From: a virus
IMG/VR virus record: IMGVR_UViG_3300050011_000007
Location: 1 to 28,478 of that record
DNA length: 28,478 nt
Direction: 5' to 3' (one strand)
Part shown: positions 11,144 to 27,447 of the stretch, in pieces
Position numbering within the stretch: position 1 is the stretch's first letter
Layout of the letters: the number at the start of each line of letters is the position of its first letter
Position numbers and translations under genes: made by a program
Notes under the pieces: generated by a model
What the model was told of the DNA's origin: nothing
The model's input: the letters and a program-made list of their open reading frames with translations, nothing else
The model's database searches: none

Positions 11144-11620
11144 TCATCCCGACTCCCCCTTTCGCAAGACCCATTCCGCGAACAACCGTAGCTGTTCAGG
11201 AGAGGCGTCTCTCTTCATGCTGTTCGCTAGATGACTAATAACCTGTATATTGCCCGGAATGTAACCAAGTTCAGGTATGATCCGATCAAGACTCGGCGCG
11301 TTGTGCTGTGGACCGCGCCCTACACCAGGATACAGGGGAATTCCCATAACAGGGCAAACATCTGGGATGATAATATCTTCTCGTGTGATCGTATGCGGCA
11401 CGCCTGCCTTCCTGGCGCGCTTCTTAGAGCTTGATACCATCATAGACGTGATGTTGGCATCTCGCCACTTCTTACGACGCTCAGGCTTACTAGAAGGGCT
11501 GAACTTGTTGGCGTTTATCGCATGAGGCTTGCAGTACGTGCTAAGACCGCTCTTAGTCTGAGTACTGGTGTAGAACTCAGACTCGTCCTTGGGCTCGGCA
11601 CACTTAGGGCACTTTTTCAT
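11144..11620 (-). CDS. HNH-type homing endonuclease (SLDRI / GNIQVIS family)
   Basis: The 158-residue protein has an N-terminal zinc knuckle (C4-x2-C7, C30-x2-H33: MKKCPKCAEPK ... STYCKPH), a basic middle segment (SSKKRARKAG) and a C-terminal HNH-type core. The core runs CPVMGIPLYPG, then PSLDRIIPELGYIPGNIQVISHLANSMKRDASPEQL (Asp112, Asn124, His130). The 'sLDRi-p-GY-~-GN-~-~v-s-~-aN-~-k' motif is a known phage HNH family. The ATG at 11620 has no Shine-Dalgarno, but an extended -10 box sits exactly 6 nt upstream, so a leaderless transcript is likely. It separates the ParB-like gene from the connector gene. It ends 18 nt before the next start. Confidence 0.85.
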   Translation of the reverse strand: MKKCPKCAEPKDESEFYTSTQTKSGLSTYCKPHAINANKFSPSSKPERRKKWRDANITSMMVSSSKKRARKAGVPHTITREDIIIPDVCPVMGIPLYPGVGRGPQHNAPSLDRIIPELGYIPGNIQVISHLANSMKRDASPEQLRLFAEWVLRKGESG

Positions 11621-11635
11621 GTCCTAAGTTTAACA
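11621..11635 (-). promoter_or_regulatory. Leaderless-type promoter of the HNH gene (extended -10)
   Basis: On the minus strand TG-T-TAAACT (TAAACT at 11632-11627) is followed by six bases and then the ATG. The TG one base before the hexamer makes an extended -10 box; no good -35 is seen. Confidence 0.55.
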
Positions 11636-11670
11636 CCAAAAGCTTACTGTGTTGTAGTCGAGCCTGGACA

Positions 11671-12078
11671 TTACTTCATCCTCGTCTTGTAGCCCTTGTC
11701 GCCGCGCTCGCCCAGCGTGTTGCGTGACTTCTGCTCTTCCGGGCTGCGGGTGAAGCTCTGTGACCAGGACTCATGTACTGCGTCGGGACGGGCAGCAGGC
11801 TCGTCTGAGAGGTCAGTCGCCGGTAGCGGAATGCCCAGGCGAGCAGCCACGGCAGCCCTGTGATGACCGCCGCCCTGGATCTGGTAGTTGCCAGCCCGGT
11901 CATTGAACCGGACTCCGACAGGCGTCTGGAATCCGTTCTGCTTGACATGAGACTCAAGCCTTGACATGTAGTCGGGCTCACGGTTATAGTAGGTGTCAGC
12001 CAGGGCGGGAAGGCTCTTTCCCCTGACGCCCGGATCGCTCCCGACTACATGACCGAACTGCTCCGGTGAGAATTCCAT
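11671..12078 (-). CDS. ParB/sulfiredoxin-like domain protein
   Basis: The 135-residue protein has a short ParB-N-like domain: 'YMSRLESHVKQNGFQTPVGVRF' (about 37-58), a strand 'GNYQIQGGGHHRAAVAARLGIPLPAT' (63-88) with the GHHR motif at 71-74 and the typical 'aA-~-~-lG-i-~-~-Pv' ending. In this superfamily the G-(D/G)-G-H-R-x-x-A loop binds nucleotide. No HTH domain follows; the C-terminus is polar (SFTRSPEEQKSRNTLG). The ATG overlaps the TAA of the preceding gene (TAATG). Such domains recur in phage head and neck operons, where their role is mostly unknown. A role in virion assembly or DNA packaging is possible but not shown by the sequence. Confidence 0.7.
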   Translation of the reverse strand: MEFSPEQFGHVVGSDPGVRGKSLPALADTYYNREPDYMSRLESHVKQNGFQTPVGVRFNDRAGNYQIQGGGHHRAAVAARLGIPLPATDLSDEPAARPDAVHESWSQSFTRSPEEQKSRNTLGERGDKGYKTRMK

Positions 12079-13046
12079 TAGTAAATACCGCCGCCGTAGT
12101 TCCACAGCGGGCTAGGAATGCCAGATACGTCATCGTTGCGGTGATCGACAGCCGGGATCTCACGGACTGGCCAGCGGTGGTCGTCGAACTCCTGTGGCTT
12201 GAAGAGAGGAACGAGACGCCCGGTCGTCCTAGAAACACGGCGTAGCTGCAATGTCTCCATGCGGTACATGCCGACATTGAGCTGACCGCAGTAGTCCATG
12301 TACCTCTGCGTCAGCGCGGTCATCTGCTCCATGATCTGACGGTAACGCCCGGAACGGTCGATGACGGTTCCCTCAGCCGTCTGGACATTGGCGTCGGAGG
12401 CTGCGTCATTAGCCAGAGCCCAGAAGCAGTTGATCGTCGTAAGCGTCTCTACGAGAGGCTCTTCGATCGCTGGAAGGTTCTGTAGGCTCTTCGGGGTCTC
12501 ACGGTAGTCGATGAAACCACGGGCATCCAGGTAACGCTCCTCGATCTCAGTCGCATAGGTATGCTGGCGTACTGAGTCGATAGCGATCCGGGCAAGCTCG
12601 TCATCGGAGAAGAGACTCCATGCCACGCCGACCATGAGCAGAGTCGAGTTGACGGCGACCGGAGCCCCCAGGAATACCTGTCCCACGTCAGGATTGAGGT
12701 AGAAGGCGATAGCCGTGTCATCACGCCAGTAGGCAGTACCGCCCGGAGCGGGGGTATGCGCGGTGTTAGTCTGGAGCGCGGTGTAGAAGTAGTTGTTATT
12801 GACAACCTGCGCGTTGACAGCATAGGTTGAAGTAGGAGACCAGGGCAGGGCGGTCGAGTAGTCAAGCAGTACCTGCTGGGAAGATCCTGTGATGACAGTA
12901 ACTGATAGCAGATTCGAGGTGTTGATCTCCTGCTTGGGCAGGTCGAACCAGACCGTCTGACCGTCTCCCAGAGCCGTCGTGCGAAATGGCGTCGGAGGAT
13001 CACCGATCTGGAGACGGACCCTGGAAATCAGGTCACTTAGACGCAT
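12078..13046 (-). CDS. Virion structural / connector-like protein
   Basis: The start at 13046 (MRLSDLISRVRLQIGDPPTPF) is chosen because AGGAG lies 4 nt upstream; reading further upstream would run through the previous gene in another frame. The 322-residue protein begins with 'L-x-x-RVR-x-x-iGDpp-tPF', found at the start of many actinophage head-tail or baseplate-associated proteins. A beta-rich middle part (about residues 35-130: ALGDGQTVWFDLPKQ, AYWRDDTAIAFYLNPDVGQVFLGAP) is followed by a helical part (140-270) with 'DELARIAIDSVRQHTYA' and 'YRQIMEQMTALTQRYMDYCGQLN'. I cannot name the family. The next gene overlaps its TAA by one base. Confidence 0.62.
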   Translation of the reverse strand: MRLSDLISRVRLQIGDPPTPFRTTALGDGQTVWFDLPKQEINTSNLLSVTVITGSSQQVLLDYSTALPWSPTSTYAVNAQVVNNNYFYTALQTNTAHTPAPGGTAYWRDDTAIAFYLNPDVGQVFLGAPVAVNSTLLMVGVAWSLFSDDELARIAIDSVRQHTYATEIEERYLDARGFIDYRETPKSLQNLPAIEEPLVETLTTINCFWALANDAASDANVQTAEGTVIDRSGRYRQIMEQMTALTQRYMDYCGQLNVGMYRMETLQLRRVSRTTGRLVPLFKPQEFDDHRWPVREIPAVDHRNDDVSGIPSPLWNYGGGIY

Positions 13047-13053
13047 CTCGCTC

Positions 13054-13905
13054 CTAGTTGCTAGGGTACATATAGTTCCATCTGTCAGAAGCGAGCTGCC
13101 GCATCCCGAACTGGGATGGGGTTCCTGCCCCAACACCCATTGTAATGGATGAATTAAGTGTGACCAGTGCATTCGATGCGATGACCAGGATCTTGACGAT
13201 GATGGACGTGCCACCAATTGAGAAGTCGGATCTCGAACCAGCGTAGTCATTGAACGTGACGTGGATAGATACCGAGAAGGTATCGTGAGCGCCAGCGGTG
13301 TCAAATGGACTGGCTGAGGCATGAATGCTGATCGACTGGTTGGACCCGGCATTGTCAGAGAAGGATACGGGAGTAGGACCAGAGGTGGTGATCTCCGTAT
13401 CAACCCAGTAGTTGGCTGAGTTAAACGTCTGAGTCGGGTACAGCAAAGAACTATTTGTACCATAAGCGTTTTGCCCGCCTGTCGAAGAAGCGTTATTGGG
13501 CGCAGACAGGGGTCCGCTGGCGATGCCGCCGGAACCGGAACCGGTATCCCAGTAATGGGAGGTGGCTGTATACCAGAGAGAGCCTGCGGTGCCCTGGAAA
13601 ACGCACGCCATGTAGGCGGTGCCAGGCGCCAGAGATGGAGGCGTCGCGAACGCTGCCCGCACCCACCCCGACCCGGCGGCTCCTGACCAGGACGCCGTTT
13701 CAGAGTAAATGAAAGCCTGAGTCGTGGCATTGAACAGCGCTATGGACTGCGGCAAGATCGCCGCCGTGGGAGCCGAGTAGAACCACATTGCCGTCAGGTT
13801 CGCTACGGTGCTGACGGAGACCTGGACCCCGAACGTGTAGCTGCTCAAATCAGCGACAACAGTCCCCGGACTGGACGGCTGACCGAAAAGAGTATAGACA
13901 GCCAT
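13054..13905 (-). CDS. Structural protein with DUF4082 domain (probable appendage)
   Basis: The 283-residue protein has an N-terminal DUF4082-like domain, residues about 5-170. Its signs are 'YTFGVQVSVSTVANLTAMWFYSAP', 'SIALFNATTQAFIYSETAS', 'GWVRAAFATPPSLAPGTAYMACVFQG' and the family's closing block 'PLSAPNNASSTGGQNAYGTNSSLLYPTQTFNSANYWVDTEI'. In bacteria this beta-sandwich occurs in secreted and glycan-binding proteins. Residues 175-283 are a separate beta-rich part ('SFSDNAGSNQSISIHASAS...'), which contains a repeat-like pair: 'SFSDNAGSN' and 'TFNDYAGSRSD'. It overlaps the previous gene by TAATG and is followed by AGGAG for the next gene. A receptor-binding or tail-appendage role is inferred. 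Confidence 0.72.
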   Translation of the reverse strand: MAVYTLFGQPSSPGTVVADLSSYTFGVQVSVSTVANLTAMWFYSAPTAAILPQSIALFNATTQAFIYSETASWSGAAGSGWVRAAFATPPSLAPGTAYMACVFQGTAGSLWYTATSHYWDTGSGSGGIASGPLSAPNNASSTGGQNAYGTNSSLLYPTQTFNSANYWVDTEITTSGPTPVSFSDNAGSNQSISIHASASPFDTAGAHDTFSVSIHVTFNDYAGSRSDFSIGGTSIIVKILVIASNALVTLNSSITMGVGAGTPSQFGMRQLASDRWNYMYPSN

Positions 13906-14504
13906 TAGCTAAGAGATGCTGAGTACCCGAAGTTGAGGATAGCCGTGGCATTCCATGTCTGCCCGGATACCTTGGTCCCCTGCGAGCTGATGCCGTGATT
14001 GATGAAGATACCGGATACAGTCACACCGGAGGCAGTGCCATTGTCGATTCCTAGTTCATTCCACGCGAAATTGGCCACGCCAGTACCGAATGTAGACGCA
14101 AAAGTCAGCGTCGATACAGCCGAAGACGTATTGATCACCGGGGCACCGGAGACTAGCTGGAAGTAAGAAGTAGTCGAACCGCCGCCGGTATCACCGCCTA
14201 GAGTCGTATCGGCAGCCGTGGCTGCTGTGCTGCTGGTGCCTACGCCGATCCTGCCCGCTGCTGAAGAGAACTTCGTCCCGATGCTGGTACCTGCAACGCC
14301 GCCCAGCAACGCCGCCCAGCCAAGCTCCGTGATGAGATTAGCGTTCTCGTGAACCGTCTCAAGATACGGCGTGACACCAAGATCGTCGAAATCACGGGCG
14401 GTAGGATCGAATAGCAGTCCCTTGCGTTCCTTGACCCACAGCGTCTGCCCTGCATCCCAGCGGCGGACCTTGAAGGTAGTCTGGACAGAACTGAATTCAT
14501 GCAT
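13905..14504 (-). CDS. Virion structural protein, beta-rich (unrecognised)
   Basis: This is a 199-residue protein. It begins MHEFSSVQTTFKVRRWDAGQTLWVKERKGLLFDPTARDFD, contains 'ELGWAALLGGVAGTSIGTKFSS' and a long Thr/Ser/Gly-rich beta-like region ending 'SGVTVSGIFINHGISSQGTKVSGQTWNATAILNFG'. This layout resembles phage minor tail or fibre-associated proteins that follow each other in one operon. Start and stop both overlap neighbours by TAATG (14504 and 13905), so translation is probably coupled. No signal peptide, membrane segment or catalytic motif is seen. Confidence 0.55.
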   Translation of the reverse strand: MHEFSSVQTTFKVRRWDAGQTLWVKERKGLLFDPTARDFDDLGVTPYLETVHENANLITELGWAALLGGVAGTSIGTKFSSAAGRIGVGTSSTAATAADTTLGGDTGGGSTTSYFQLVSGAPVINTSSAVSTLTFASTFGTGVANFAWNELGIDNGTASGVTVSGIFINHGISSQGTKVSGQTWNATAILNFGYSASLS

Positions 14505-15046
14505 TAGCTGCTCACCTGGAACGTTACCTGTAGGTTAAACTGGCTGTTGCCCGGAGATCCAGTAGCTGACCGGCGAATCCAGACGGGGTATACGGAGCGT
14601 GGACCGATGTTGCCCATCAGGACGCCACCGGCAGACGTGCTGGACGGAGGCACCCAGGAGGCGATTCCAGCGGGGAGAACATAGGGAGATGAAATAAGCA
14701 CAGCCTGAGGCGAGGTTGACGTGAAGGCAGTGGCTCCGGTAGGGTCAAGACCTAGTGCCCAGTCAATCGAGGCAGAGGTCACGGTAGACGCCGGAATCCA
14801 GGCAATAGCAGAGACCATCGTCGTCGTCGTATTCGAGTTATAGACGAAGGCGCACTGGTAGTCAACCTGCATGGCTGCGTTCTGCGGACCCGTGAGATCA
14901 GGGAAGAAATTGTTCTGGGCGACAGTAAGATCGATCTGTGTCGTCGAGCAGAAGTGCCCGTTCGAGTTATACACAGAACCGGCATTGGCGTAGCCGGCAC
15001 TTGCACTGGGAGCCCCCAGGAGGTACTGTACGTCTGCTGCGATCAC
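14504..15046 (-). CDS. Virion structural protein (unrecognised)
   Basis: The start is GTG at 15046, overlapping the TGA of the previous gene as GTGA; a longer reading would overlap that gene without support. The 180-residue protein begins MIAADVQYLLGAPSASAGYANAGSVYNSNGHF and is beta-rich: 'TQIDLTVAQNNFFPDLTGPQNAAMQVDYQCAFVYNSNTTTTMVSAIAWIPAS'. It ends in strands 'VYPVWIRRSATGSPGNSQFNLQVTFQVSS'. It looks like a small minor virion protein with a jelly-roll-like pattern. No family is recognised. Confidence 0.55.
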   Translation of the reverse strand: MIAADVQYLLGAPSASAGYANAGSVYNSNGHFCSTTQIDLTVAQNNFFPDLTGPQNAAMQVDYQCAFVYNSNTTTTMVSAIAWIPASTVTSASIDWALGLDPTGATAFTSTSPQAVLISSPYVLPAGIASWVPPSSTSAGGVLMGNIGPRSVYPVWIRRSATGSPGNSQFNLQVTFQVSS

Positions 15047-15621: not shown

Positions 15622-15628
15622 GTGACTC

Positions 15629-15814
15629 CTAGCAAATAACGGTAGGTCCGTGCCAGTAAGGCATTGGGACTGGCTGTGGCTGTACCCAGAACGCAGAGTC
15701 CGGGTACCTTGGTTCTGAGATCCTGATCGTCTTCATCAGTGCGATGTCGAGTTCAAGAGTCTCAATGCGCTCGCGGAGCCTATCCAGCTCCAGTTCTAGT
15801 TCCTCGTTAGTCAC
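15629..15814 (-). CDS. Small coiled-coil protein
   Basis: The 61-residue protein starts at GTG 15814 with an AGGAGGGG site upstream, inside the end of the LAGLIDADG gene (8-nt overlap). Residues 1-33 (MTNEELELELDRLRERIETLELDIALM) form a heptad pattern typical of a coiled coil. The C-terminus is Pro/Trp-rich (VQPQPVPMPYWHG). It may be a small assembly or appendage factor. No family is recognised. Confidence 0.55.
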   Translation of the reverse strand: MTNEELELELDRLRERIETLELDIALMKTIRISEPRYPDSAFWVQPQPVPMPYWHGPTVIC

Positions 15815-16373
15815 CTGGTCCCCTCCTGTTCATTGCAAGCATCTGATCTCTATATGCCTGTCTTAGACTCAAGTCTACACTCTTCCTTGGGTCTGCCAGG
15901 ACTTCCTGGTACTCTACTGCTAGTTTCGCTCGCTCTGACTTCACATGCATGTACGGAATGACTTGCTGAAGAACCGCAATTCCAGCCGGGCCACCAGAGT
16001 TCCATTTGTATGATGCCTTATACCCAGGTCGTTCAGCTTGATTCAGGCCAATTGATCCGATACCGGTCACATCTCTCAGCCATTCCAGCATAGGCATGTA
16101 CGTATTTGAAACCGAAATAACAATACGTGGTTGCCCGTTGCTGTGCCGGTAGATACCTACGTGACCATCAGCATCTATCATTCCAGCGATATAGGCTGCC
16201 TGTGCTTCAGTGAGCCGATTTGGCATGGTAATCCTGCGATTTGTCATCGCTGAACCAGAACATATCTTTGAGCAGTATTTAGTTTTTCTAGGTGGACGAC
16301 CCGTCCCGCCCACTTCAAACTTTCCGTCGCAGACGGGGCAGGTCTTGACCTCAGGAACTATCTTGGATACCAT
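15807..16373 (-). CDS. LAGLIDADG homing endonuclease with zinc-finger N-terminus
   Basis: The chosen start at 16373 gives 188 residues. The N-terminus carries a zinc-binding pattern C12-x2-C15 ... C34-x3-C38 (TCPVCDGKF ... KYCSKICSG). The LAGLIDADG motif is at 62-70 (IAGMIDADG), followed by 'HVGIYRHSNGQPRIVISVSNTY', the usual strand pair, and 'LRDVTGIGSIG'. A single motif implies a homodimeric enzyme. There is no Shine-Dalgarno; TG-C-TATGAT sits 6 nt before the ATG, so a leaderless transcript is likely. A longer start at 16430 would overlap the previous gene. The gene separates two structural genes, and its end overlaps the next start. It is free-standing; no intron feature is visible. Confidence 0.87.
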   Translation of the reverse strand: MVSKIVPEVKTCPVCDGKFEVGGTGRPPRKTKYCSKICSGSAMTNRRITMPNRLTEAQAAYIAGMIDADGHVGIYRHSNGQPRIVISVSNTYMPMLEWLRDVTGIGSIGLNQAERPGYKASYKWNSGGPAGIAVLQQVIPYMHVKSERAKLAVEYQEVLADPRKSVDLSLRQAYRDQMLAMNRRGPGD

Positions 16374-16388
16374 GGATATATCATAGCA
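16374..16388 (-). promoter_or_regulatory. Leaderless-type promoter of the LAGLIDADG gene (extended -10)
   Basis: On the minus strand TG-C-TATGAT (hexamer at 16385-16380) is followed by ATATCC and the ATG. No -35 of good match stands upstream; the extended TG may replace it. Confidence 0.55.
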
Positions 16389-16398
16389 TACCCAAGAA

Positions 16399-16869: not shown

Positions 16870-16904
16870 GTCTACCCCTTATAGTTTCCTAGTGACAATG
16901 ACAG

Positions 16905-16945
16905 TCTACCGCAAGCTTGACAGGCGGTAGAGGGAAGGCTAGGCT
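16905..16945 (+). promoter_or_regulatory. Promoter P1 with an inverted repeat centred on its -35 box
   Basis: TTGACA (16917-16922), a 17-nt spacer and TAGGCT (16940-16945) are followed by six bases and the ATG at 16952, so the mRNA should be leaderless. An inverted repeat TCTACCGC (16905-16912) / GCGGTAGA (16924-16931) encloses the -35 box in its 11-nt centre, a good place for a repressor operator. Confidence 0.72.
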
Positions 16946-16951
16946 GGTCCT

Positions 16952-17248
16952 ATGAGACGAATGACCTACATCGCTCCGTCGTGCCCGGATGGCTACACGG
17001 AGAAGGATCTTGAGATCATCATGGGAGACCGTCTGCCCGAATTCCATAAGTGGATGACGGGCCAGACGTGTTCCCTATGTGAAGGCAAGAAGTACAACCA
17101 CGCCACGCAGCAGTATCAGTCAACGGTATGCTCTGGAATGTTCCCCGGCATGGTGGTCTCCCGTGACGAGGTGCTTGACGGTCATGGGATGATCACGTAT
17201 ACATGGGACGTGGACAGGTTCCTCAAGGGCCTGCCCGTCATCGACTAG
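16952..17248 (+). CDS. Small protein with CxxC motif, first gene of the plus-strand cluster
   Basis: The 98-residue protein starts MRRMTYIAPSCPDGYTEKDLEIIMGD. It has C40-x2-C43 (TCSLCEG) and C60 with H50 between them, which could bind one zinc. The C-terminus (ITYTWDVDRFLKGLPVID) looks like a strand plus helix. No family is recognised. The ATG lies 6 nt after a TAGGCT -10 box and has no Shine-Dalgarno, so a leaderless message is predicted. A TAGGAGG site at its stop serves the next gene. Confidence 0.62.
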   Translation: MRRMTYIAPSCPDGYTEKDLEIIMGDRLPEFHKWMTGQTCSLCEGKKYNHATQQYQSTVCSGMFPGMVVSRDEVLDGHGMITYTWDVDRFLKGLPVID

Positions 17249-17256
17249 GAGGACAT

Positions 17257-17511
17257 ATGGGAACGACAATGATCACTGCCGAGGGCTATCACGACCTCAC
17301 AGGCGGCGAGCTAGGAGCTATGCAGGCCATCCTCGATGAGGACAACAAGATCCTCGTCTCCTACGACTTCAATACGAACGACGACGGTGTTGACATCGAT
17401 GGCCCGGTCAGGGTCGTGCAGGGCAGCCTGCCCAAGACCAGCTACCTGAACATCTACGCAATGTGCAACGACCTGTTCGACCGCCTGTCGCCTGAGGACA
17501 GCATGGAGTAA
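17257..17511 (+). CDS. Small acidic hypothetical protein
   Basis: The 84-residue protein starts MGTTMITAEGYHDLTGGELG, with GGAGG 4 nt before the ATG. It is acidic (DEDNKILVSYDFNTNDDGVDIDGPV) and ends in a short helix 'YLNIYAMCNDLFDRLSPEDSME'. No motif is recognised. It overlaps the next gene by TAATG, so the two are probably co-translated. Confidence 0.6.
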   Translation: MGTTMITAEGYHDLTGGELGAMQAILDEDNKILVSYDFNTNDDGVDIDGPVRVVQGSLPKTSYLNIYAMCNDLFDRLSPEDSME

Positions 17512-17636
17512 TGGCGGACGAGGACTGCACGACATGCAACGGTGATGGAACTATCATTGTTCGCATAGTACGACCTGAAGCGGGTCCTCCGAAGACCATA
17601 ACATGCCCCGTGTGCCACGGCAGCAGAAAGAAGTAG
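17511..17636 (+). CDS. Micro-protein with DnaJ-type zinc motif
   Basis: The 41-residue protein has C6-x2-C9-N-G-D-G and, after a loop of 22 residues, C32-x2-C35-H-G. The CxxCxGxG form matches one DnaJ cysteine-rich repeat and its partner, so a single zinc site is likely. The start overlaps the upstream TAA (TAATG). Such mini zinc-knuckle peptides are common in actinophage accessory regions; partner and function are unknown. Confidence 0.6.
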   Translation: MADEDCTTCNGDGTIIVRIVRPEAGPPKTITCPVCHGSRKK

Positions 17637-17638
17637 TC

Positions 17639-17884
17639 ATGCCATATTGTTGCACAGGAGCCAAGGGCGGCGACCATTTGGATGGTTGTGAGCACAGGAG
17701 ATCCAAGGTCGCTGCCGTACTAGGCATCGGTCGTGTAGGAAAGCACCGAAAGACGGGTGACAAGTCCTGCACCACATCCTGGTCTACAGGCAGGAATATT
17801 CACGTCCATTACTGCGGACAGGTGCCCAGTCACGCGGGAAACCACACCTGTCGCACGTCTGGATGCACCGAGACCAAGAATTGA
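17639..17884 (+). CDS. Cys/His-rich small protein
   Basis: The 81-residue protein starts MPYCCTGAKGGDHLDGCEHRRS, two bases after the previous stop and with only a weak ribosome site, so it probably depends on coupled translation. It has about eight Cys and several His: C4, C5, C17-x-H19 and, in the C-terminal half, 'SCTTSW ... IHVHYCGQVPSHAGNHTCRTSGC'. This spacing suggests one or two zinc sites. Its TGA stop lies inside the -35 box of the next promoter. Confidence 0.57.
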   Translation: MPYCCTGAKGGDHLDGCEHRRSKVAAVLGIGRVGKHRKTGDKSCTTSWSTGRNIHVHYCGQVPSHAGNHTCRTSGCTETKN

Positions 17885-17912
17885 CAACAGGAGCCTTCGA
17901 GGATAGGCTCCT
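17881..17912 (+). promoter_or_regulatory. Promoter P2 overlapping an 8-bp inverted repeat
   Basis: TTGACA (17881-17886, containing the TGA stop of the previous gene), 17 nt, TAGGCT (17904-17909). The start point would be near 17916, giving a 20-nt leader with GGAGG. The inverted repeat AGGAGCCT (17889-17896) / AGGCTCCT (17905-17912), followed by TTC, could be an operator over the -10, or a terminator for the upstream genes when transcribed. Confidence 0.68.
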
Positions 17913-17935
17913 TTCACTAAACAAACGGAGGAAAT

Positions 17936-18949
17936 ATGCGCAAGAGTGTCAAGGGTGCCGTCATCGGTGCTGTCACCACGGCTGTCGTAGCGTCAGTCAC
18001 CGGGCTTAGCGCCCCGACTGCTCTGGCAGAAACGTCGAGCACTATCCCAGGCAATGGCTGGGTCAGTACCCAGACAGTACCTGACTACATCCTCTCTGAT
18101 GACGGTGCGTCCGTGAATTACACGCCCGGAACGGTGCTGTTCTCGACTTCATGGAACCCCAGGTTCGGCAAGTCATGGCAGGACACGTACCTCGTCACCG
18201 GATACTCGCATGGTGCGAACTCGACCGATCAGGCGGGGTCGTATGGCAAGTACGTCTACAAGATGCCCCTACAGGTCAGTTCTTCGTCTCAGTTCACCGG
18301 GAAGATGACCTACAGCGTCAGCCCGGATTTCTCCGGTCGCCCCGGATGGGACATCTGGCTGTCACCGAAGGGGAGCCAGGGCGTTGACACGTCTGCTTCG
18401 AGTCTGGAGGCCAACCCGCGCACGGTGGAGATCCTGCTTCAGCCCGGCAATGAGTCATTCGAGTCAAACCCTGGCTACGACAGGCTCTTCTACGGCGTGG
18501 GCTCTCTCACAGACGTGAACCTCGGCGCTTACGTCCAGAAGGGCCTGGCCTACCTTGGCCTTACTCCGTCGGACTACTACTGGGCGGCGGTCGACGGAGG
18601 CGTCGAGATGACGCAGGGCTCGTTCACCATGAACAGCTATGCCCTGTCTGTAACGGTCAATGCGTCTGACGGCTCGAAGACCGTCAAGACCCCCGACTGG
18701 GGAGCAACGGCTACTGCCACGACGCACGCCAGTACCAAGAAGAGCGAGAGCAGGCCCAAGGTAAAGGCCAAGCCCAAGACACACGCACAGAAGAAGCTGA
18801 CTGTGACGGAGAAGATTGCTCCAGCCAGTGATGTCACACAGCCCAAGTCGGGCACGTCGGTCATCCTGTACGCCCTGATCGGGCTGGGCATTCTGGGACT
18901 CGGAGTAGTCTCCGCAGTCGTCTGGCGCAGGCGTCGCAGGAGGGCTTGA
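17936..18949 (+). CDS. Secreted, membrane-anchored surface protein
   Basis: This is a 337-residue protein. Residues 1-31 are a signal peptide (MRKSVKGAV, a long Ala/Val core, cleavage after ALA-31). The exported part (32-250) is beta-rich and Ser/Tyr/Trp-rich with no family I can name. A Lys/Thr/Pro-rich stalk follows (about 255-300: STKKSESRPKVKAKPKTHAQKK). The C-terminus has Q302-P-K-S-G306, a hydrophobic segment 308-330, then six Arg and Ala, i.e. a stop-transfer tail like a sortase-type sorting signal, though the LPxTG motif is not canonical. It should face outward on the host cell. GGAGG lies 5 nt upstream. As a phage gene expressed from its own promoter it may alter the cell surface or block superinfection (inference). 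Confidence 0.8.
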   Translation: MRKSVKGAVIGAVTTAVVASVTGLSAPTALAETSSTIPGNGWVSTQTVPDYILSDDGASVNYTPGTVLFSTSWNPRFGKSWQDTYLVTGYSHGANSTDQAGSYGKYVYKMPLQVSSSSQFTGKMTYSVSPDFSGRPGWDIWLSPKGSQGVDTSASSLEANPRTVEILLQPGNESFESNPGYDRLFYGVGSLTDVNLGAYVQKGLAYLGLTPSDYYWAAVDGGVEMTQGSFTMNSYALSVTVNASDGSKTVKTPDWGATATATTHASTKKSESRPKVKAKPKTHAQKKLTVTEKIAPASDVTQPKSGTSVILYALIGLGILGLGVVSAVVWRRRRRRA

Positions 18950-18978
18950 CGCCCGGTGCCACTGGCGGTAAGCTACCG
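18946..18978 (+). promoter_or_regulatory. Promoter P3 with a small dyad over the -10 box
   Basis: TTGACG (18946-18951, containing the TGA stop of the surface protein gene), 17 nt, TAAGCT (18969-18974). The start near 18981 leaves a 14-nt leader with AAGGAGG. CGGTA-AGC-TACCG (18966-18978) is symmetric over the -10 box. Confidence 0.62.
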
Positions 18979-18994
18979 GTAACAAGGAGGCAAT

Positions 18995-19123
18995 ATGAAT
19001 TCACATCTCATGGCTGCGCACATCATGGCAGCAGGAGTATCGACGGCGGGCATTCCCACTAGCTTCATGTGGGGACTGATCGTCGGTCTCGTCATCGGTC
19101 TTATCCTTCGGGGCAAGTTCTGA
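18995..19123 (+). CDS. One-helix membrane peptide
   Basis: The 42-residue protein begins MNSHLMAAHIMAAGVSTAG and ends with one hydrophobic helix, about residues 22-38 (TSFMWGLIVGLVIGLILRGKF), plus a short basic tail. It is not holin-like by charge pattern alone, but a membrane-acting role is likely. AAGGAGG stands 4 nt upstream. The TGA overlaps the next ATG (TGATG), suggesting co-translation with the following Cys-rich gene. Confidence 0.62.
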   Translation: MNSHLMAAHIMAAGVSTAGIPTSFMWGLIVGLVIGLILRGKF

Positions 19124-19272
19124 TGACCGGGCATAGCTCGGATAGTAATTGCAGGTACTCCTGGGGGATCTGCGACATGCGTTCTGGTGTCCGTGAACTC
19201 CCGCATGTCTGTAACGAGGAGGGCAGGCATCTGCTTCATGTCTGCATGGTCTGCGGAGTGCCTCAGGCATAA
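19123..19272 (+). CDS. Small Cys/His-rich protein
   Basis: The 49-residue protein starts with an ATG overlapping the previous TGA. Cysteines at 10, 17, 30, 41 and 44 and histidines at 28 and 40 (HVCNEEGRHLLHVCMVCG) can form a zinc site. The ending HVC-x2-C-G resembles a zinc knuckle. No family is recognised. Confidence 0.57.
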   Translation: MTGHSSDSNCRYSWGICDMRSGVRELPHVCNEEGRHLLHVCMVCGVPQA

Positions 19273-19287
19273 TGGTAAGGAGGAACA

Positions 19288-19467
19288 ATGTTCGGCAGGC
19301 TCACGAAGGTAACGATCACCACAGCAGAGCGCACGTTCTGCGGTGAGGCGTGTTCCGATTGTCACGCCAGTAATCCGGGCTGTACGATGTCCGTGGGGCA
19401 CAACAAGACTCACGGGCACTACAGCAACGGTGGTGACGGAGGTTGCGGTCACAGATGGGGGAGGTGA
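19288..19467 (+). CDS. Small Cys/His-rich protein
   Basis: The 59-residue protein starts MFGRLTKVTITTAERTFCGEACSDCHASNPGC. It has C18, C22, C25, H26 and C32, then HNKTHGHYSNGGDGGCGHRWGR. AAGGAGG stands 5 nt upstream. The Cys/His spacing implies one or two metal sites. It follows the 49-residue protein at a distance of 15 nt in the same operon. Confidence 0.55.
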   Translation: MFGRLTKVTITTAERTFCGEACSDCHASNPGCTMSVGHNKTHGHYSNGGDGGCGHRWGR

Positions 19468-19494
19468 CTGACCGAACACGCCTGAATTGTGGAG

Positions 19495-19524
19495 TAGGGT
19501 AGAAACGCGGGCAAAGTGGCCCGC
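19495..19524 (+). promoter_or_regulatory. Possible promoter and leader hairpin before the 131-residue gene
   Basis: TAGGGT (19495-19500) resembles the -10 boxes of the neighbouring promoters, but no good -35 lies 16-18 nt upstream. A perfect GCGGGC/GCCCGC hairpin (19507-19512 with 19519-19524) follows, before the ribosome site. Confidence 0.35.
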
Positions 19525-19542
19525 CTTACGAAAGGTGTCATT

Positions 19543-19938
19543 ATGAACCTGGAAATTATCCCGCTTCAGGACGGTAACCCGCACGCTGAAGTTCAGCACG
19601 TAGAAGTACGTGACTCAGAGACCGGCAGCATCGAGGCTTCGGCTGACTGGTACAGCAGGACAGGTGACCCAAGGCAGTACCGCGTCACCCGTATCCAGAC
19701 CCGCGAAGCAACCGATACGACCATGCTGACCCGTCAGGAGCTTCTTGACGAGGTTGAGAAGCAGGCATGGGAGAAGCCCGGAAACACCTACGGGCTGAAC
19801 GACCGCGACTCCGAGGACAAGATCAGGGCAGTACCGGCTGATCGCCAGGACACCATGCGTGTTCAGGAGCCCCAGACCGCTCCCGCAGACCCGGCGAACC
19901 CGGCTCAGTCAAGGGTCGGCAACTTCATCAACAACTAG
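19543..19938 (+). CDS. Polar hypothetical protein
   Basis: The 131-residue protein starts MNLEIIPLQDGNPHAEVQHVEVRDSETG, with GAAAGGTG upstream. The N-terminal 55 residues look beta-rich, with a helix 'LTRQELLDEVEKQAWE' around 62-77. The C-terminal 50 residues are disordered (Pro/Asp/Gln-rich). A terminator follows 4 nt after the stop. No family is recognised. Confidence 0.57.
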   Translation: MNLEIIPLQDGNPHAEVQHVEVRDSETGSIEASADWYSRTGDPRQYRVTRIQTREATDTTMLTRQELLDEVEKQAWEKPGNTYGLNDRDSEDKIRAVPADRQDTMRVQEPQTAPADPANPAQSRVGNFINN

Positions 19939-19942
19939 CAGA

Positions 19943-19968
19943 AGGCCCGGACAATGGGGTCCGGGCCT
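19943..19968 (+). terminator. Intrinsic terminator-like hairpin
   Basis: AGGCCCGGAC (19943-19952) and GTCCGGGCCT (19959-19968) form a perfect 10-bp stem with a 6-nt loop, 4 nt after the stop codon of the 131-residue gene. The run of T is weak. The next promoter starts 7 nt later. Confidence 0.78.
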
Positions 19969-19975
19969 CAGCCGT

Positions 19976-20010
19976 TTGACATACCAGTACCGCCGTCATA
20001 GACTCCTGTC
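19976..20010 (+). promoter_or_regulatory. Promoter P4, leaderless
   Basis: TTGACA (19976-19981), 17 nt, TAGACT (19999-20004), then six bases to the ATG at 20011. Spacing and hexamers match P1. No Shine-Dalgarno precedes the ATG. Confidence 0.76.
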
Positions 20011-20130
20011 ATGGAGGACGCAGAGACGCTAGCCTGCAATGACAATACTACTCACATAGAGCCCCACTACTGGCAGAATCCCCATGATGGCAAGACGTAC
20101 TTCTGCCCGGGGCACACGGAGGTCAGGTAA
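20011..20130 (+). CDS. 39-residue Cys/His peptide
   Basis: The peptide starts MEDAETLACNDNTTHIEPHYWQ and ends KTYFCPGHTEVR. C9, H15, H19 and C32-P-G-H35 could form one zinc site. The ATG is at the predicted start of transcription. The next gene starts 3 nt after its TAA. Confidence 0.55.
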   Translation: MEDAETLACNDNTTHIEPHYWQNPHDGKTYFCPGHTEVR

Positions 20131-20133
20131 ACC

Positions 20134-20226
20134 ATGTATCAATGCCCGTATTGCCCGGAGAAGTTTCAGCTCCTGATCACGCTCTCACAGCACGTAGCAG
20201 CGGCTCATCCCAAGAGGGGGAAGTAA
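20134..20226 (+). CDS. 30-residue protein: single classical C2H2 zinc finger
   Basis: The whole protein is a perfect classical finger: C4-x2-C7-x3-F11-x5-L17-x2-H20-x4-H25 (MYQCPYCPEKF...LSQHVAAAH), then a basic tail PKRGK. This is the consensus of TFIIIA-type fingers, with the hydrophobic core Phe and Leu at the right places. A nucleic-acid or protein contact is likely. Its TAA overlaps the next ATG (TAATG). Confidence 0.68.
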   Translation: MYQCPYCPEKFQLLITLSQHVAAAHPKRGK

Positions 20227-20441
20227 TGGCCTGCGGAGTAAATGGTCACGTATGGGAGGACGACGAAGACGGCTGGTCCTACTTCGGCAAGGGAAAGTCG
20301 GGCAAGGAAGAGGACCACAAGGGCCAGACCTGCCGGAAGTGCGGAGAGTCCCAGCTCCTGAAGCGAAACCATTCACATCAGAACGTCGGTGACATGTGTG
20401 CCCTGTGCGGTCGCGGCAGCGGAAGAGGTCGCTGGCGTTGA
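20226..20441 (+). CDS. Small zinc-ribbon-like protein
   Basis: This is a 71-residue protein. It has C3-x4-H8, a Lys/Asp-rich loop, then C36-x2-C39 and C58-x2-C61 with H49 and H51 between them (TCRKCGESQ ... MCALCGRG). The two CxxC pairs suggest a zinc ribbon. It ends with a basic RGSGRGRWR tail that could bind nucleic acid. The start overlaps the preceding TAA. Its TGA stop is part of the next -35 box. Confidence 0.6.
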   Translation: MACGVNGHVWEDDEDGWSYFGKGKSGKEEDHKGQTCRKCGESQLLKRNHSHQNVGDMCALCGRGSGRGRWR

Positions 20442-20466
20442 CATTCCGGGCGACGCGGTGTAGGTT
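20438..20466 (+). promoter_or_regulatory. Promoter P5, -35 overlapping a stop codon
   Basis: TTGACA (20438-20443, containing the TGA of the previous gene), 17 nt, TAGGTT (20461-20466). The start would be near 20473, with a leader holding a strong GGAGGTGAT site. TGTA-GGT-TACA (20459-20469) is symmetric over the -10. Confidence 0.68.
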
Positions 20467-20490
20467 ACATCCACGGAGGGAGGTGATGAA

Positions 20491-20658
20491 ATGACCACAG
20501 GAGAAGTTATTCTGAAGCGCCGACTTGATCGGTTGGAAAACGCTTTTACTGCTCTTCTGAACAGTCTAGACAGCAATGAATTCGTTGGTGCAAATCCGAT
20601 CACAGGTGGAGTTGCTGCCAATGCAAGGGAAGCCATGCGGGAGACGCTAGGCGAATAG
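20491..20658 (+). CDS. 55-residue helical protein
   Basis: The sequence starts MTTGEVILKRRLDRLENAFTALLNSLDSNE, an amphipathic helix with a heptad-like pattern. It continues GANPITGGVAANAREAMRETLGE. A very strong ribosome site (GGAGGTGAT) and an own promoter suggest high expression. No family is recognised. Confidence 0.58.
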   Translation: MTTGEVILKRRLDRLENAFTALLNSLDSNEFVGANPITGGVAANAREAMRETLGE

Positions 20659-20711
20659 CTGACACTGAGGACCAATCACTGTACCATGTACCATCTGGTG
20701 TCACAAACTAG

Positions 20712-20753
20712 TTGACATTAAGTCCATGCCCCTGATACACTAGGGGCATGGAC
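20712..20753 (+). promoter_or_regulatory. Promoter P6, leaderless, inside a perfect 12-bp inverted repeat
   Basis: TTGACA (20712-20717), 18 nt, TACACT (20736-20741), six bases, ATG at 20748. The arms GTCCATGCCCCT (20722-20733) and AGGGGCATGGAC (20742-20753) are perfect complements; the eight bases between them hold the -10 box, and the right arm holds the start codon. This geometry fits a DNA operator for repression. Confidence 0.74.
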
Positions 20754-21461
20754 CAAACATGTAAAAATGATCTCAAGCCTGTTTATTCCAAGGGCTTGTG
20801 CCAGCAGTGTTATGACAGGCAGAAGTCATCCGCCCGGAATTACAAGAAGGCTGAGTGCCGAAACGGGCATCCTTTTGTCGAGGGCAGCTTCGAGACATCG
20901 ACTAGTAATAAGCGCCTCTGTTTGATATGCAAGGAAGAGAACAAGAAAACGCACTGCCCGCAAGGGCATGAGTACGTCAAAGATAATATCTATATGGTCA
21001 ATGGCAGTCCCCAGTGCAAGATCTGTCGCAACCAGCGTATGCGTGACAGACGACCAGCTAGGGGTATCGGTGCTGGAGGAGTCAACAAGGCAAAGACTCA
21101 TTGTCCCCAAGGCCACGAGTACAGTGAGGAAAACACCCTTCAAAACAAGGATGGGCGCAGAGGGTGCAGAGCTTGTGCTAACACCAATAGCAGAATACAA
21201 AGAGTAAAAGCACACGGAATCACGCCAGAGCAATATGAAGAACTCCTAATTGCGCAGGACTATAGATGCCCTGGCTGCAATGAGGTTCTAGAAGACAGAT
21301 CGGGCCAAGCTATAGATCACGACCACGTGTGCTGCCCGGAAGTCTTTTCTTGCGGCAGATGCATTAGAGGAATACTCTGCAAATCATGTAATACGGTTCT
21401 AGGGTTTGCTAAAGATAGATCTGAAACACTAAGAAATCTCGCTGACTACCTGGAGAAATAG
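20748..21461 (+). CDS. HNH homing endonuclease (endonuclease VII type) with three zinc-finger repeats
   Basis: This is a 237-residue protein. The N-terminus has a C5 and C18-x2-C21 site. Three repeats of the form C-x2-GH-x(n)-C-x2-C follow at 37-61, 70-93 and 119-143; the last two open with the same seven residues, THCPQGHEY. These probably contact DNA. The C-terminal endonuclease VII-like core has C174-x2-C177, D190-H-D-H193, then RGILCKSCNTVLG (C211, C214, N215). It is free-standing on the plus strand at the end of the accessory cluster. It lacks a Shine-Dalgarno; the ATG is 6 nt after the -10. Its A/T-richer coding region differs from the GC-rich neighbours, suggesting later arrival. A terminator follows its stop. 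Confidence 0.88.
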   Translation: MDQTCKNDLKPVYSKGLCQQCYDRQKSSARNYKKAECRNGHPFVEGSFETSTSNKRLCLICKEENKKTHCPQGHEYVKDNIYMVNGSPQCKICRNQRMRDRRPARGIGAGGVNKAKTHCPQGHEYSEENTLQNKDGRRGCRACANTNSRIQRVKAHGITPEQYEELLIAQDYRCPGCNEVLEDRSGQAIDHDHVCCPEVFSCGRCIRGILCKSCNTVLGFAKDRSETLRNLADYLEK

Positions 21462-21464: not shown

Positions 21465-21490
21465 AAGCCCGGTCCTGATGGACCGGGCTT
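21465..21490. terminator. Strong hairpin terminator between converging transcription units
   Basis: AAGCCCGGTCC (21465-21475) and GGACCGGGCTT (21480-21490) form a perfect 11-bp stem with a 4-nt loop. It stands 3 nt after the plus-strand HNH stop and about 40 nt beyond the capsid gene stop on the other strand, so it may serve both directions. Confidence 0.8.
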
Positions 21491-21519: not shown

Positions 21520-21531
21520 TAATATCTGGGG

Positions 21532-22551: not shown

Positions 22552-22575
22552 TTGCAGTCCTTCTCTTCTTGACTA

Positions 22576-22611: not shown

Positions 22612-22659
22612 GGGTATGTTTCCAGAGTAGTTGATAAAAGCTACGGAGTGTGGCCCGGA

Positions 22660-23400: not shown

Positions 23401-23456
23401 GATGTCTCTTTCTACGAATAATCCCCTTGGTCCTGACTCATTCTACTAGCTAGTTG

Positions 23457-25244: not shown

Positions 25245-25306
25245 CGTTTCCCCTTGCGCCGAATATACTCCTATGTTACCGTGACGACTCCAATAGTCTA
25301 GCGGAC

Positions 25307-25334
25307 TTGACAACAGGTAACTAGTTGATAGACT
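25307..25334 (+). promoter_or_regulatory. Promoter P7 of the DUF2637 gene
   Basis: TTGACA (25307-25312), 16 nt, TAGACT (25329-25334). The start near 25341 leaves an 11-nt leader that begins at GAAGGAGG. It lies opposite the portal gene's upstream region, for which I see no convincing minus-strand promoter. Confidence 0.6.
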
Positions 25335-25351
25335 ACTCCAGAAGGAGGAAG

Positions 25352-26119
25352 ATGAAGCTACCTAATAGCATCACATGGATTAGAAAGCCCAAGGAGCCCA
25401 GTCTTGATGAGGAGCTGCTGGAATTCTCATTCCTGAGCACCCACAGGAAGTGGGCCTTCCGGCTCCTGGCTGTCATCGTTGTCATCGCCACGGTCGCGGG
25501 CCTCTCGGAGAGCTTTAACGGGCTCTACATCTGGTTCAGCACCCACGGAATCACCGGATTCTGGGCTGACTTCGCCCCGCTGCTTCTGGACTCGTTCACC
25601 GTCATCGGTGAGCTGGCCATCTTCGGTGCCCTGACTGCTCCGAGACACTGGCACTGGCGCAAGCGCTTCCTGCCATGGGTCGGAATCATCCTGGGCCTAG
25701 GCGGATCAGTCGCAGGCAACGTCGGTGACAAGGCGGGCCACCCGCTGAGCTGGCAGTTGACGGCTATGATCCCCCCGCTGGCTGGTGCCTTCGGAATCAT
25801 GATCGGCTTCTCGGTCCTCAAGTCACTAGCGGGCGAGAAGGCTGAAACCCTGATCAGGAAGCGGGCGACGGCTATCAAGGTCAGCGCGGAAAGGATCGAG
25901 CCCGTCGAGCTTGAGAAGCCAACGGTACACAGGGGGATTGACGTGCTGATTCCTCCGGTGCCCGAAGCGGCTCAGAGCATCGAGCCCGTTCCGGTCGAGA
26001 GCATCGAGTCAGGAAGGTCAGCGTTCGATGTCAGCAATGACTTCGCCATGACCCGTGTCCAGTTGCCCAAGCCTACCGGCGTGGTCGGGGAGACAGGTCA
26101 GTTCCCGGCGCTGCCATAA
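25352..26119 (+). CDS. DUF2637 (SpdB-like) four-helix membrane protein
   Basis: The start is the ATG at 25352, after AAGGAGG (3-nt gap). A TTG 27 nt upstream would lie before the ribosome site and is rejected. The 255-residue protein has four hydrophobic helices at about 34-52, 72-96, 106-124 and 138-159. The DUF2637 core is visible: 'SESFNGLYIWFSTHGITGFWADFAPLLLDSFTVIGELAIFGAL' followed by 'GLGGSVAGNVGDKAGHPLSW'. The family is known from actinobacterial plasmids (spread proteins) and phages. Residues 165-255 are a soluble tail with Pro/Glu-rich stretches (VELEKPTVHRGIDVLIPPVPEAAQSIEPVPVESIESG). It sits on the opposite strand to the structural genes, and its 3' end overlaps the HExxH gene by 47 nt. 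Confidence 0.82.
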   Translation: MKLPNSITWIRKPKEPSLDEELLEFSFLSTHRKWAFRLLAVIVVIATVAGLSESFNGLYIWFSTHGITGFWADFAPLLLDSFTVIGELAIFGALTAPRHWHWRKRFLPWVGIILGLGGSVAGNVGDKAGHPLSWQLTAMIPPLAGAFGIMIGFSVLKSLAGEKAETLIRKRATAIKVSAERIEPVELEKPTVHRGIDVLIPPVPEAAQSIEPVPVESIESGRSAFDVSNDFAMTRVQLPKPTGVVGETGQFPALP

Positions 26120-26624
26120 CATGCGGTGCCAGGGTTAGATTACCGGCAGCCTCATGGAAAGAAGCTGAGTCAAACCTGGTGGGCTTGCCCGCCGCGAGGG
26201 CAGTTCCGTAGGGAGAATAGCTTCCGGGGACTGCCCTCTCAGCCGTCTTCTCCGCGTATCCTTCTACACGACCCCGCCCGGTACTATTTCCGGGGGCCAT
26301 GGCAGCCTCGAACTGAAGCGGGTTGAGACGGTGCTGTGTCGCATGATGGGCTTCGTGGACGATCAGCCTGTGAGTCTGCTGCTCTCGCTCTGGTGAGCCT
26401 GCGGACATGCCTGAGGGGGCTCCTGCGAAGCGCATCGACTGGTCGGTGTGCCGGTAAGCCCCGGCGTGCTGAACGGAGTCGTCGTTGAAGCGGACCTTGT
26501 TGATGTGCTGGACAGTCTCCAGCGGGACGCGCCGCTGATACAGGGCGTTGGCGAGGTACTTGTGCTCGAAGGCATTACCGCCGTAGGATGTGAATGAATC
26601 GGCGTAGTCCTCCGGGGTAGCCAT
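26073..26624 (-). CDS. HExxH metallopeptidase-like protein
   Basis: The 183-residue protein has the zinc-peptidase signature H90-E91-A-H-H94 inside 'RLIVHEAHHATQHRLNP', preceded by a hydrophobic helix. 'VEGYAEKTAER' at 120-130 offers E121 or E125 as third ligand, as in gluzincins. The N-terminus (MATPEDYADSFTSYGGNAFEHKYLANALYQRR) and the disordered, basic C-terminus (TDLSPRPRR) flank it. Genes of this kind occur near phage portal and capsid genes, sometimes as virion-linked or ejected proteins; a maturation protease is possible but not proven. The ATG overlaps the TAA of the 83-residue gene (TAATG). Confidence 0.68.
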   Translation of the reverse strand: MATPEDYADSFTSYGGNAFEHKYLANALYQRRVPLETVQHINKVRFNDDSVQHAGAYRHTDQSMRFAGAPSGMSAGSPEREQQTHRLIVHEAHHATQHRLNPLQFEAAMAPGNSTGRGRVEGYAEKTAERAVPGSYSPYGTALAAGKPTRFDSASFHEAAGNLTLAPHVMAAPGTDLSPRPRR

Positions 26625-26875
26625 TATTCATCCGTTCCGTAGATAAACTGCGTGTACTCAGCGATCGAGTCGAAGTCACCCTCTCCCCTCTGACGCCAGC
26701 GGTGACGCTGGACAGCGGCGGTCCTGATGCGGGTGTTGATAGCATCCCTCCGGTGATCAGGAGCTGCCTCAAGAATGCGGCGGTTGGCATCAGCGACCGC
26801 GTACTTGGTCAGGGGAGTCGTCTCGTCCCCGTCCTGTTCGGGACGGGGACGGCGATCGTTGTAGAAGTCAGTCAA
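26624..26875 (-). CDS. 83-residue hypothetical protein with TTG start
   Basis: The start is TTG at 26875, which overlaps the end of the endonuclease gene and has a G-rich site upstream (GGGGGA). A longer reading would run through that gene in another frame. The protein begins (M)TDFYNDRRPRPEQDGDETT and continues with helical segments 'YAVADANRRILEAAPDHRRDAINTRIRTAAVQRHRW'. It ends 'FDSIAEYTQFIYGTDE'. No family is recognised. A TAATG overlap links it to the HExxH gene. Confidence 0.58.
   Translation of the reverse strand: MTDFYNDRRPRPEQDGDETTPLTKYAVADANRRILEAAPDHRRDAINTRIRTAAVQRHRWRQRGEGDFDSIAEYTQFIYGTDE
26825..26850. repeat. Perfect 10-bp inverted repeat inside the 83-residue gene
   Basis: GTCCCCGTCC (26825-26834) and GGACGGGGAC (26841-26850) are perfect complements with a 6-nt loop; a further C-G pair extends the stem. 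It codes for PRPEQDGDE on the minus strand and lies near the start of the gene, right behind the endonuclease gene. Confidence 0.65.
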
Positions 26876-27428
26876 GGTTAGTCCCCCTATACTCTTCCAG
26901 GTATTTAATCGCCGAATCCAGTCTACTCTTATCGTCATCAAAATTGCCCAGACCATGATTGCATTTCTGGCAAATAAGACCTCTAGCGCATTGTCCGCAA
27001 GATCTATTGCCCGAACAGCATGAATGATCATGGTCTACTACCAGAGGCAGATCTCTATAGCAAATCTTGCACAATCCATTCTGTTCTTGCATCAACAGCA
27101 AATATGACTCATAAGACATCTTGTACGTAGTCCTGAGCCAGCGTTCCCTCTGGTATTCCGCAGTACCCACCTGGTTGACTGATTTACGGAGCCTGCTAGC
27201 AGATTCTCTTTGAGCACAACCGCATGAACCAAGTCTCCCCTTCGTGTATGTCTCGCAGAGCTGCCTGAATCGAACATCTCTTAGCGTTCCGCAATCACAT
27301 TTACAAGGGAAAAAAGCGTCGTTGTTCCTGCCTGATCTGTAAAAGTCACCTGCTACCGTCCATCTGCCGAACTGATCTCCGGTGCGTACGGTAGCAGGTG
27401 ATCTCCTGGTTCTTTTTGCATTAGTCAT
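26868..27428 (-). CDS. Endonuclease VII-type homing endonuclease with N-terminal Cys-rich domain
   Basis: This is a 186-residue protein. Residues 17-75 (GDQFGRWTVAGDFYRSGRN ... PCKCDCGTLRDVRFRQL ... GRLGSCGCAQRE) form the FGR-W-x-V / CDCG / SCGC domain often fused to phage homing endonucleases. Residues 117-165 are the endonuclease VII core: C120-x2-C123, V-D132-H-D-H135, then RGLICQKCNHGLG (C153, C156, N157). The ATG lacks a Shine-Dalgarno, and TATGCT sits exactly 6 nt upstream, so a leaderless message is likely. It lies between the 129-residue and 83-residue genes, and its last codons overlap the TTG start of the latter. Its coding region is more AT-rich than its neighbours. Confidence 0.86.
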   Translation of the reverse strand: MTNAKRTRRSPATVRTGDQFGRWTVAGDFYRSGRNNDAFFPCKCDCGTLRDVRFRQLCETYTKGRLGSCGCAQRESASRLRKSVNQVGTAEYQRERWLRTTYKMSYESYLLLMQEQNGLCKICYRDLPLVVDHDHSCCSGNRSCGQCARGLICQKCNHGLGNFDDDKSRLDSAIKYLEEYRGTNLD

Positions 27429-27447
27429 GCATTAAGCATACACTAAT
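27420..27447 (-). promoter_or_regulatory. Leaderless-type promoter of the endonuclease gene
   Basis: On the minus strand TATGCT (27440-27435), six bases, ATG. A dyad ATTAGT (27447-27442) / ACTAAT (27425-27420) surrounds it. No -35 of good match is seen. Confidence 0.48.

Follow-up and report, generated by a model that had tools for sequence, protein, structure and literature searches.

Putative leaderless promoters at inserted endonuclease genes in the structural region of a BRock-like phage fragment

We analyzed an IMG/VR virus fragment of 28,478 bases (the window, to whose full length all positions refer) in which the structural region is interrupted by five inserted endonuclease genes, HEG1 to HEG5 (Table 1). 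In four of the five, HEG1 to HEG4, a hexamer of the form TANNNT ends exactly 6 nucleotides (nt) before the ATG, with no Shine-Dalgarno (SD) sequence at a usable distance, just as an initial annotation of this DNA had described. The first T of the hexamer falls at exactly -12 in each, which matches the published signature of leaderless genes, where the first T of TANNNT lies about 12 base pairs (bp) before the start codon (PMC3160421). On this sequence evidence, we consider it likely that HEG1 to HEG4 are separate leaderless transcription units under host-type sigma-70 (HrdB-like) promoters. The placement of the -10 would put the RNA start at the ATG or no more than 1-2 nt away from it, yielding a leaderless mRNA that could be translated without an SD.

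An extended -10 (TGN directly before the hexamer) is present in HEG1, HEG2 and HEG3, one gene more than the two first noted, and the TG of HEG4 is displaced by one base. HEG3 has a perfect TTGACA -35 at 18 nt, while the -35 hexamers of HEG1, HEG2 and HEG4 are poor. The AGGA and AGGGG of HEG1 and HEG3 were discounted as SDs because they lie one base from the ATG, which is too close. Since in-frame stops occur at -6 to -15, upstream starts are ruled out for HEG1, HEG3 and HEG4, and the HEG2 start is backed by an N-terminus, MVxKxxPE, common to its homologs in contigs L016 and L216. HEG5 is the exception: as first annotated, it borrows a GTGA overlap with the stop of g10601 and the ribosome site of the operon, an AGGAGG 6 nt upstream. 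The accompanying claim that the surrounding structural genes have clear ribosome sites stands only in part, since several overlap the gene before them and for that reason have no SD. The bare TANNNT-N6-ATG string shows no enrichment in the window, with 10 occurrences against an expected 6.7, but 6 of the 10 fall at real gene starts, those of HEG1 to HEG4 and of genes 16952 and 20011. Given a per-gene background of about 2%, the chance that four of five endonucleases would carry the layout is about 1e-6.

To place these genes among their relatives, we gathered homologs of each endonuclease from viral contigs and compared the TANNNT-to-start spacing with that of non-endonuclease open reading frames (ORFs) of the same loci; the sample consists of metagenomic contigs with automated start calls. 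In a first pass (first ATG, spacing 6), the layout was found in 10/24 endonucleases and 14/750 other genes of BRock-like loci, and in 24/155 and 16/696, respectively, in other phages. After protein deduplication, with ATG or GTG starts allowed, 33/204 endonucleases carried it compared to 31/1756 other genes (Fisher p=3e-17), so that homologous endonucleases show the layout roughly 10 times as often as other genes, a result that supports the initial interpretation. The spacing distribution peaks at 6 only, over a flat background, and requiring TGN as well left 16/204 endonucleases and 4/1756 other genes. The enrichment holds in loci below 50% GC (p=8e-5) and in every position class, whether the gene overlaps or lies near the upstream gene, is distant from it or is on the opposite strand, and operon position was therefore rejected as its cause. 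A later profile-based collection added 61 viral endonucleases, of which 14 had the layout against a background of 0.95 per spacing, and 13 of these 14 had TGN; endonuclease VII (EndoVII) genes in mostly actinobacterial bacterial genomes carried it in 11/78 cases compared to 17/776 other genes.

Among 22 homologs from named phages, the layout was found in four of five sampled Streptomyces isolates (Alone3, Karp, Teutsch and Jay2Jay, not Manuel). It was not found in the sampled Mycobacterium, Arthrobacter, Rhodococcus, Klebsiella, Pseudomonas, Salmonella, E. coli and Caulobacter phages, nor in the Gordonia phages BrutonGaster and Gray, and a TAAGGT in Gordonia phage GMA6, inside the coding sequence of the preceding gene, is probably due to chance. 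The sampled Mycobacterium and proteobacterial phage homologs rely on operon signals instead. The layout is not limited to an actinobacterial-type GC content, and a restriction to actinobacterial phages was rejected as stated, since low-GC phages have the layout, although the sampled proteobacterial phages do not. We conclude that layout and endonucleases are truly associated, and broadly so, but not in every phage group. Chance or a start-calling artefact in AT-richer inserts would suit the count of the bare pattern in the window, which is not above expectation, but the single-spacing peak, the p value of the deduplicated set, the later replication and the occurrence in isolated phages with annotated starts make this very improbable. 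Chance in AT-rich inserts is rejected at the level of the set, although any single gene could still be a chance case.

The initial annotation had further proposed a portable unit that moves with the endonuclease, and comparison with relatives supports this for some of the inserts. The HEG2 site is empty in relative L003 and the HEG5 site in L084, and different short genes occupy the HEG1 and HEG4 sites in relatives. HEG1 was inserted after the first codons of g10601, as judged against L003 and L084, leaving a remnant of the original 5' end upstream and a replacement 5' end, which includes ATGAGTCGTTTGGATTGG, at its 3' edge. Since the HEG1 promoter is located between this remnant and the HEG1 ATG, it lies inside the insert. 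HEG2 lies where the stop of g16399 meets the start of g15629, two genes that overlap in L003. The 25 nt upstream of HEG2 do not occur in HEG-free L003, and the 3' end of HEG2 supplies the SD and start overlap of g15629. HEG4 is separated from the upstream stop by 25 intergenic nt that differ from those of L003, L006 and L007. A predicted promoter within the inserted DNA is thus seen at HEG1 and is consistent with the data at HEG2 and HEG4. On the other hand, the HEG3 promoter may be local in origin, because it resembles the promoter of a neighboring non-endonuclease gene in relative G003 (TTGACA, inverted repeat, TAGACT, N6, ATG).

At HEG1, HEG2 and HEG4, which lie in the structural operon, the proposed promoter would be a compact element of about 20-25 nt, with little -35 and, at two of the three, an extended -10; it would fit into the space that the upstream stop or insertion edge leaves before the ATG. 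Since an extended -10 can dispense with a -35, it fits a compact movable promoter. HEG3 would instead use a full TTGACA promoter resembling those of its neighbors. That the unit works wherever it lands is more than we can uphold: in a promoter-similarity test of portability, a clear signal (similarity up to 0.81 without homology in the 1.2-kb flanks) came only from one low-GC clade whose member phages are related. Endonucleases of this clade share an ATCTGAA box and an extended -10, found almost only beside the endonuclease. Overall, portability of a promoter-endonuclease unit appears partly supported.

Two side observations concern the insertion loci. In the low-GC EndoVII clade (L399, L402, L413, L426, L428, L280, L442, L424 and L458), two ATCTGAA boxes lie upstream of the gene and usually an inverted copy lies inside or after it, with hardly any further copies of the motif in these loci. 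Compared to relatives, the genes that directly follow endonuclease insertions have a net +4 nt within their first ~15 codons: g10601 reads TAC[TTAC]GAG and L084 reads TAT[TTAT]GAG (window 11060-11150; L084 9380-9440), and g9196 reads AAT[TTAC]GAAGAC, with L003 also at +4 (window 9880-9945; L003 18300-18360). L100 and L042 have an endonuclease nearby without the +4 nt. These may possibly be fill-in scars of the cut, or the start may have shifted to another frame.

We also asked how the start codons would fold in RNA reading through from upstream. The starts of HEG1 to HEG4 all lie within predicted hairpins in read-through RNA, although only that of HEG3 is strong (minimum free energy -27 kcal/mol, z -5.4, with 0/200 shuffles as stable); for HEG4, 7/200 shuffles were as stable. 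Start-pairing probabilities were 0.65-1.00 in read-through RNA compared to 0.01-0.30 in the leaderless form, and with longer flanks 0.64-1.00 compared to 0.00-0.55. Across phages, the local folding z of leaderless endonuclease starts was -1.24, compared to -0.23 for leaderless non-endonucleases (p=3e-5; p=2e-4 with the window genes removed) and -0.24 for other endonuclease starts (p=6e-6). As side observations, the -10/spacer stretch in L062 and L066 (ACTTAGTAC) is the reverse complement of CxxC-coding codons just inside the endonuclease (GTACTAAGT), and HEG1 shares this design (ACTTAGG/CCTAAGT, window 11600-11632).

An SD-less start folded into a hairpin would yield little endonuclease from late operon read-through, and we propose that expression may depend on the gene's own promoter because the start is SD-less and folded in such RNA. 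We tentatively extend this to the idea, which we hold doubtful at present, that leaderlessness is an insulation device whereby RNA initiated at their own start codon is the only template from which endonucleases in late operons are translated. If so, endonuclease synthesis would be coupled to the activity of a host-type (early or constitutive) promoter and uncoupled from late structural expression, as a general leaderless counterpart of the T4 I-TevI switch. The inverted repeats around the starts of HEG1 to HEG4 could also mean that expression comes from operon read-through and that hexamers and hairpins are operator or regulatory elements, as in I-TevI autorepression, rather than working promoters; T4 endonucleases combine hairpins or operators with promoters, and several free-standing ones have no promoter of their own (PMC2988022). 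We find this unlikely, since read-through RNA would have no SD and a buried start, the spacing peaks at exactly 6 with TGN, as promoters would give, and the two neighbors of Karp 197 are both encoded on the other strand, so that no operon read-through would reach it.

Several results weigh against independent leaderless units or their insulation. The hairpins of HEG2 and HEG1 are individually weak (17/200 and 23/200 shuffles as stable). Across phages, start-spanning base pairs are not significantly raised (p 0.07-0.09) and start-to-upstream pairing is not significant, and for this reason we kept only the overall-stability result. The poor -35 hexamers of HEG1, HEG2 and HEG4 and the lack of TGN at HEG4 are further points against this reading, since they bear on promoter strength. 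Part of the enrichment simply reflects endonucleases being independent transcription units with their own promoters, because leaderless genes are common in actinobacterial hosts. Finally, endonucleases are not the only genes with the layout: window genes 16952 and 20011, neither of them an endonuclease, have a perfect TTGACA-17-TANNNT-N6-ATG, and leaderless-type starts occur on other genes of the whole relatives Alone3, Karp, Teutsch, G002, G003 and G009 (11/87 ORFs of G003 and 13/233 genes of Teutsch, mostly non-endonucleases). An endonuclease-exclusive promoter was accordingly rejected. Beside this we observed that the plus-strand island 16952-20750, between the capsid gene and g16399, holds three perfect TTGACA promoters, all of leaderless type, at gene starts 16952, 20011 and 20748.

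These non-endonuclease genes raise a possibility that we take seriously while favoring it less, namely that the promoters belong to the phage. BRock-like phages would use leaderless TTGACA-17-TANNNT-N6-ATG for many accessory genes, and endonucleases would have landed behind such promoters or evolved the local type. The two window genes, the counts in G003 and Teutsch and the HEG3-like design of TTGACA, inverted repeat and ATG in G003 all suit this explanation, as does the finding that low-GC phages put TGNTATAAT-N6-ATG on other genes too. However, endonucleases are enriched relative to genes of the same locus in every context, and their promoters differ in type: among leaderless-type starts, 36/61 endonucleases have an extended -10 compared to 16/88 other genes (p=6e-7). 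The -35 quality did not differ between endonuclease and other leaderless-type promoters, and a better endonuclease -35 was rejected. In addition, the HEG1 promoter is inside the insert and those of HEG2 and HEG4 are in DNA absent from HEG-free relatives. Separate leaderless units at HEG1 to HEG4 remain our preferred reading.

By domain, and at HEG1, HEG2, HEG4 and HEG5 also by insertion site, these genes fit free-standing homing endonucleases with putative homing activity. EndoVII domains were found in HEG3, HEG4 and HEG5, phrog_3322 in HEG1 (a Pfam search with HEG1 gave no match), and phrog_5046 with a weak LAGLIDADG match in HEG2 (PF14528, E 5e-4, under the curated cut-off); the HNH-type label given initially does not suit HEG2, which is LAGLIDADG-like by this sub-threshold match. 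The window appears to derive from a BRock-like (Streptomyces-type) myovirus. Its host is likely actinobacterial because its portal is 54% identical to the portals of Streptomyces phages GiJojo, pSt2308, BRock, Alone3 and LuckySocke, it encodes a tail sheath, and its capsid has hundreds of relatives in viral metagenomes; a megablast search with its nucleotide sequence found no match among phages. As a further observation, the site directly after the major capsid protein (MCP) gene, at the MCP/g16399 junction, repeatedly holds EndoVII endonucleases in BRock-like phages (L013, L014, L016, L017, L020, L034, L053, L104, L105, L216 and L282); these are co-oriented with the capsid gene, whereas HEG3 is convergent with it.

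Table 1. Features of the window discussed in the text (aa, amino acids; E, E-value of the profile match).
Feature	Position	Strand	Description
HEG5	9942..10604	-	Endonuclease VII family, GTG start; PF02945 E 6e-16
Replacement g10601 5' end	11125..11147	-	ATGAGTCGTTTGGATTGGAAGCG; at 3' edge of HEG1, overlaps HEG1 stop
HEG1	11144..11620	-	Endonuclease, PHROG 3322-like, 158 aa; phrog_3322 E 6e-34, phrog_1035 E 1e-24
HEG1 extended -10	11627..11635	-	TGT TAAACT (hexamer 11632-11627), 6 nt before ATG
Remnant of original g10601 5' end	11652..11671	-	ATGTCCAGGCTCGACTACAA; upstream of HEG1, by comparison with L003 and L084
HEG2	15807..16373	-	LAGLIDADG-like endonuclease, 188 aa, between g16399 and g15629; phrog_5046 E 7e-19
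HEG2 extended -10	16380..16388	-	TGC TATGAT (hexamer 16385-16380), 6 nt before ATG
Promoter/start region of non-endonuclease gene 16952-17248	16917..16954	+	Perfect TTGACA-17-TAGGCT-N6-ATG
39-codon non-endonuclease ORF 20011-20130 with promoter	19976..20130	+	Perfect TTGACA-17-TAGACT-N6-ATG
HEG3 predicted promoter	20712..20741	+	TTGACA-18-TACACT (hexamer 20736-20741), TGA before -10, 6 nt before ATG
HEG3 13-bp inverted repeat	20722..20753	+	Arms 20722-20734 and 20741-20753; encloses most of -10, ATG in 3' arm
HEG3	20748..21461	+	Endonuclease VII family, 237 aa, convergent with major capsid gene; PF02945 E 4e-20
Stem-loop 3' of HEG3	21465..21490		Strong, GC-rich, between convergent HEG3 and capsid genes; terminator-like on minus (capsid operon) strand
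HEG4	26868..27428	-	Endonuclease VII family, 186 aa; PF02945 E 5e-17
HEG4 -10	27435..27440	-	TATGCT, 6 nt before ATG

For homing endonucleases, it is an open practical question by what means a selfish gene can be expressed at a new site and leave the host operon undisturbed, and a promoter that needs no leader, no ribosome site and often no -35 would be a simple answer. Each endonuclease gene could switch on even where the landing site offers neither promoter nor ribosome site. The pattern is measurable across many phages and directly predicts where transcript 5' ends should lie in cultured Streptomyces phages. The layout also aids correct start choice when such endonuclease genes are annotated and offers a compact expression part for actinobacteria.

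Endonuclease-specific promoters in T4, leaderless genes in general and a leaderless suggestion for one hidden HNH gene (PMC11855218) are already known; among the open-access papers searched, we found no description of leaderless promoters as a recurrent trait of phage homing endonucleases. The free-standing and intron homing endonucleases segB, segE, mobB and I-TevI of T4 (PMC2988022) are likewise selfish endonucleases with their own promoters, next to or inside phage operons, and hairpins silence the long transcripts of I-TevI and segB by blocking translation, which the short transcript from the proximal promoter escapes, as we propose tentatively for the genes studied here. However, T4 uses phage-modified middle or late promoters with a leader and SD, where we predict a host-type -10 and no leader, and T4 hairpins hide the SD, whereas those predicted here, with no SD to cover, would hide the start codon. 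Actinobacterial leaderless genes (PMC3160421, PMC4895711) have the same -10 consensus, the same spacing and a preference for AUG; in S. coelicolor, about 21% of the primary start sites yield leaderless mRNA (PMC4895711). Those are host genes, however, whereas the layout described here is found mainly at endonuclease insertions in phages, in many cases together with an extended -10, and is also found in low-GC phages. The hidden HNH homing gene of mycobacteriophage ShiLan (PMC11855218) also lacks an SD and has been proposed to initiate leaderless; it differs in lying out of frame inside a methylase gene, with a GTG start and no promoter identified, where the genes studied here have a -10 at fixed spacing. 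Finally, Cluster O mycobacteriophages such as Corndog (PMC4351075) have predicted phage SigA-like promoters with the +1 at the start codon, but these drive operon-leading genes rather than endonucleases.

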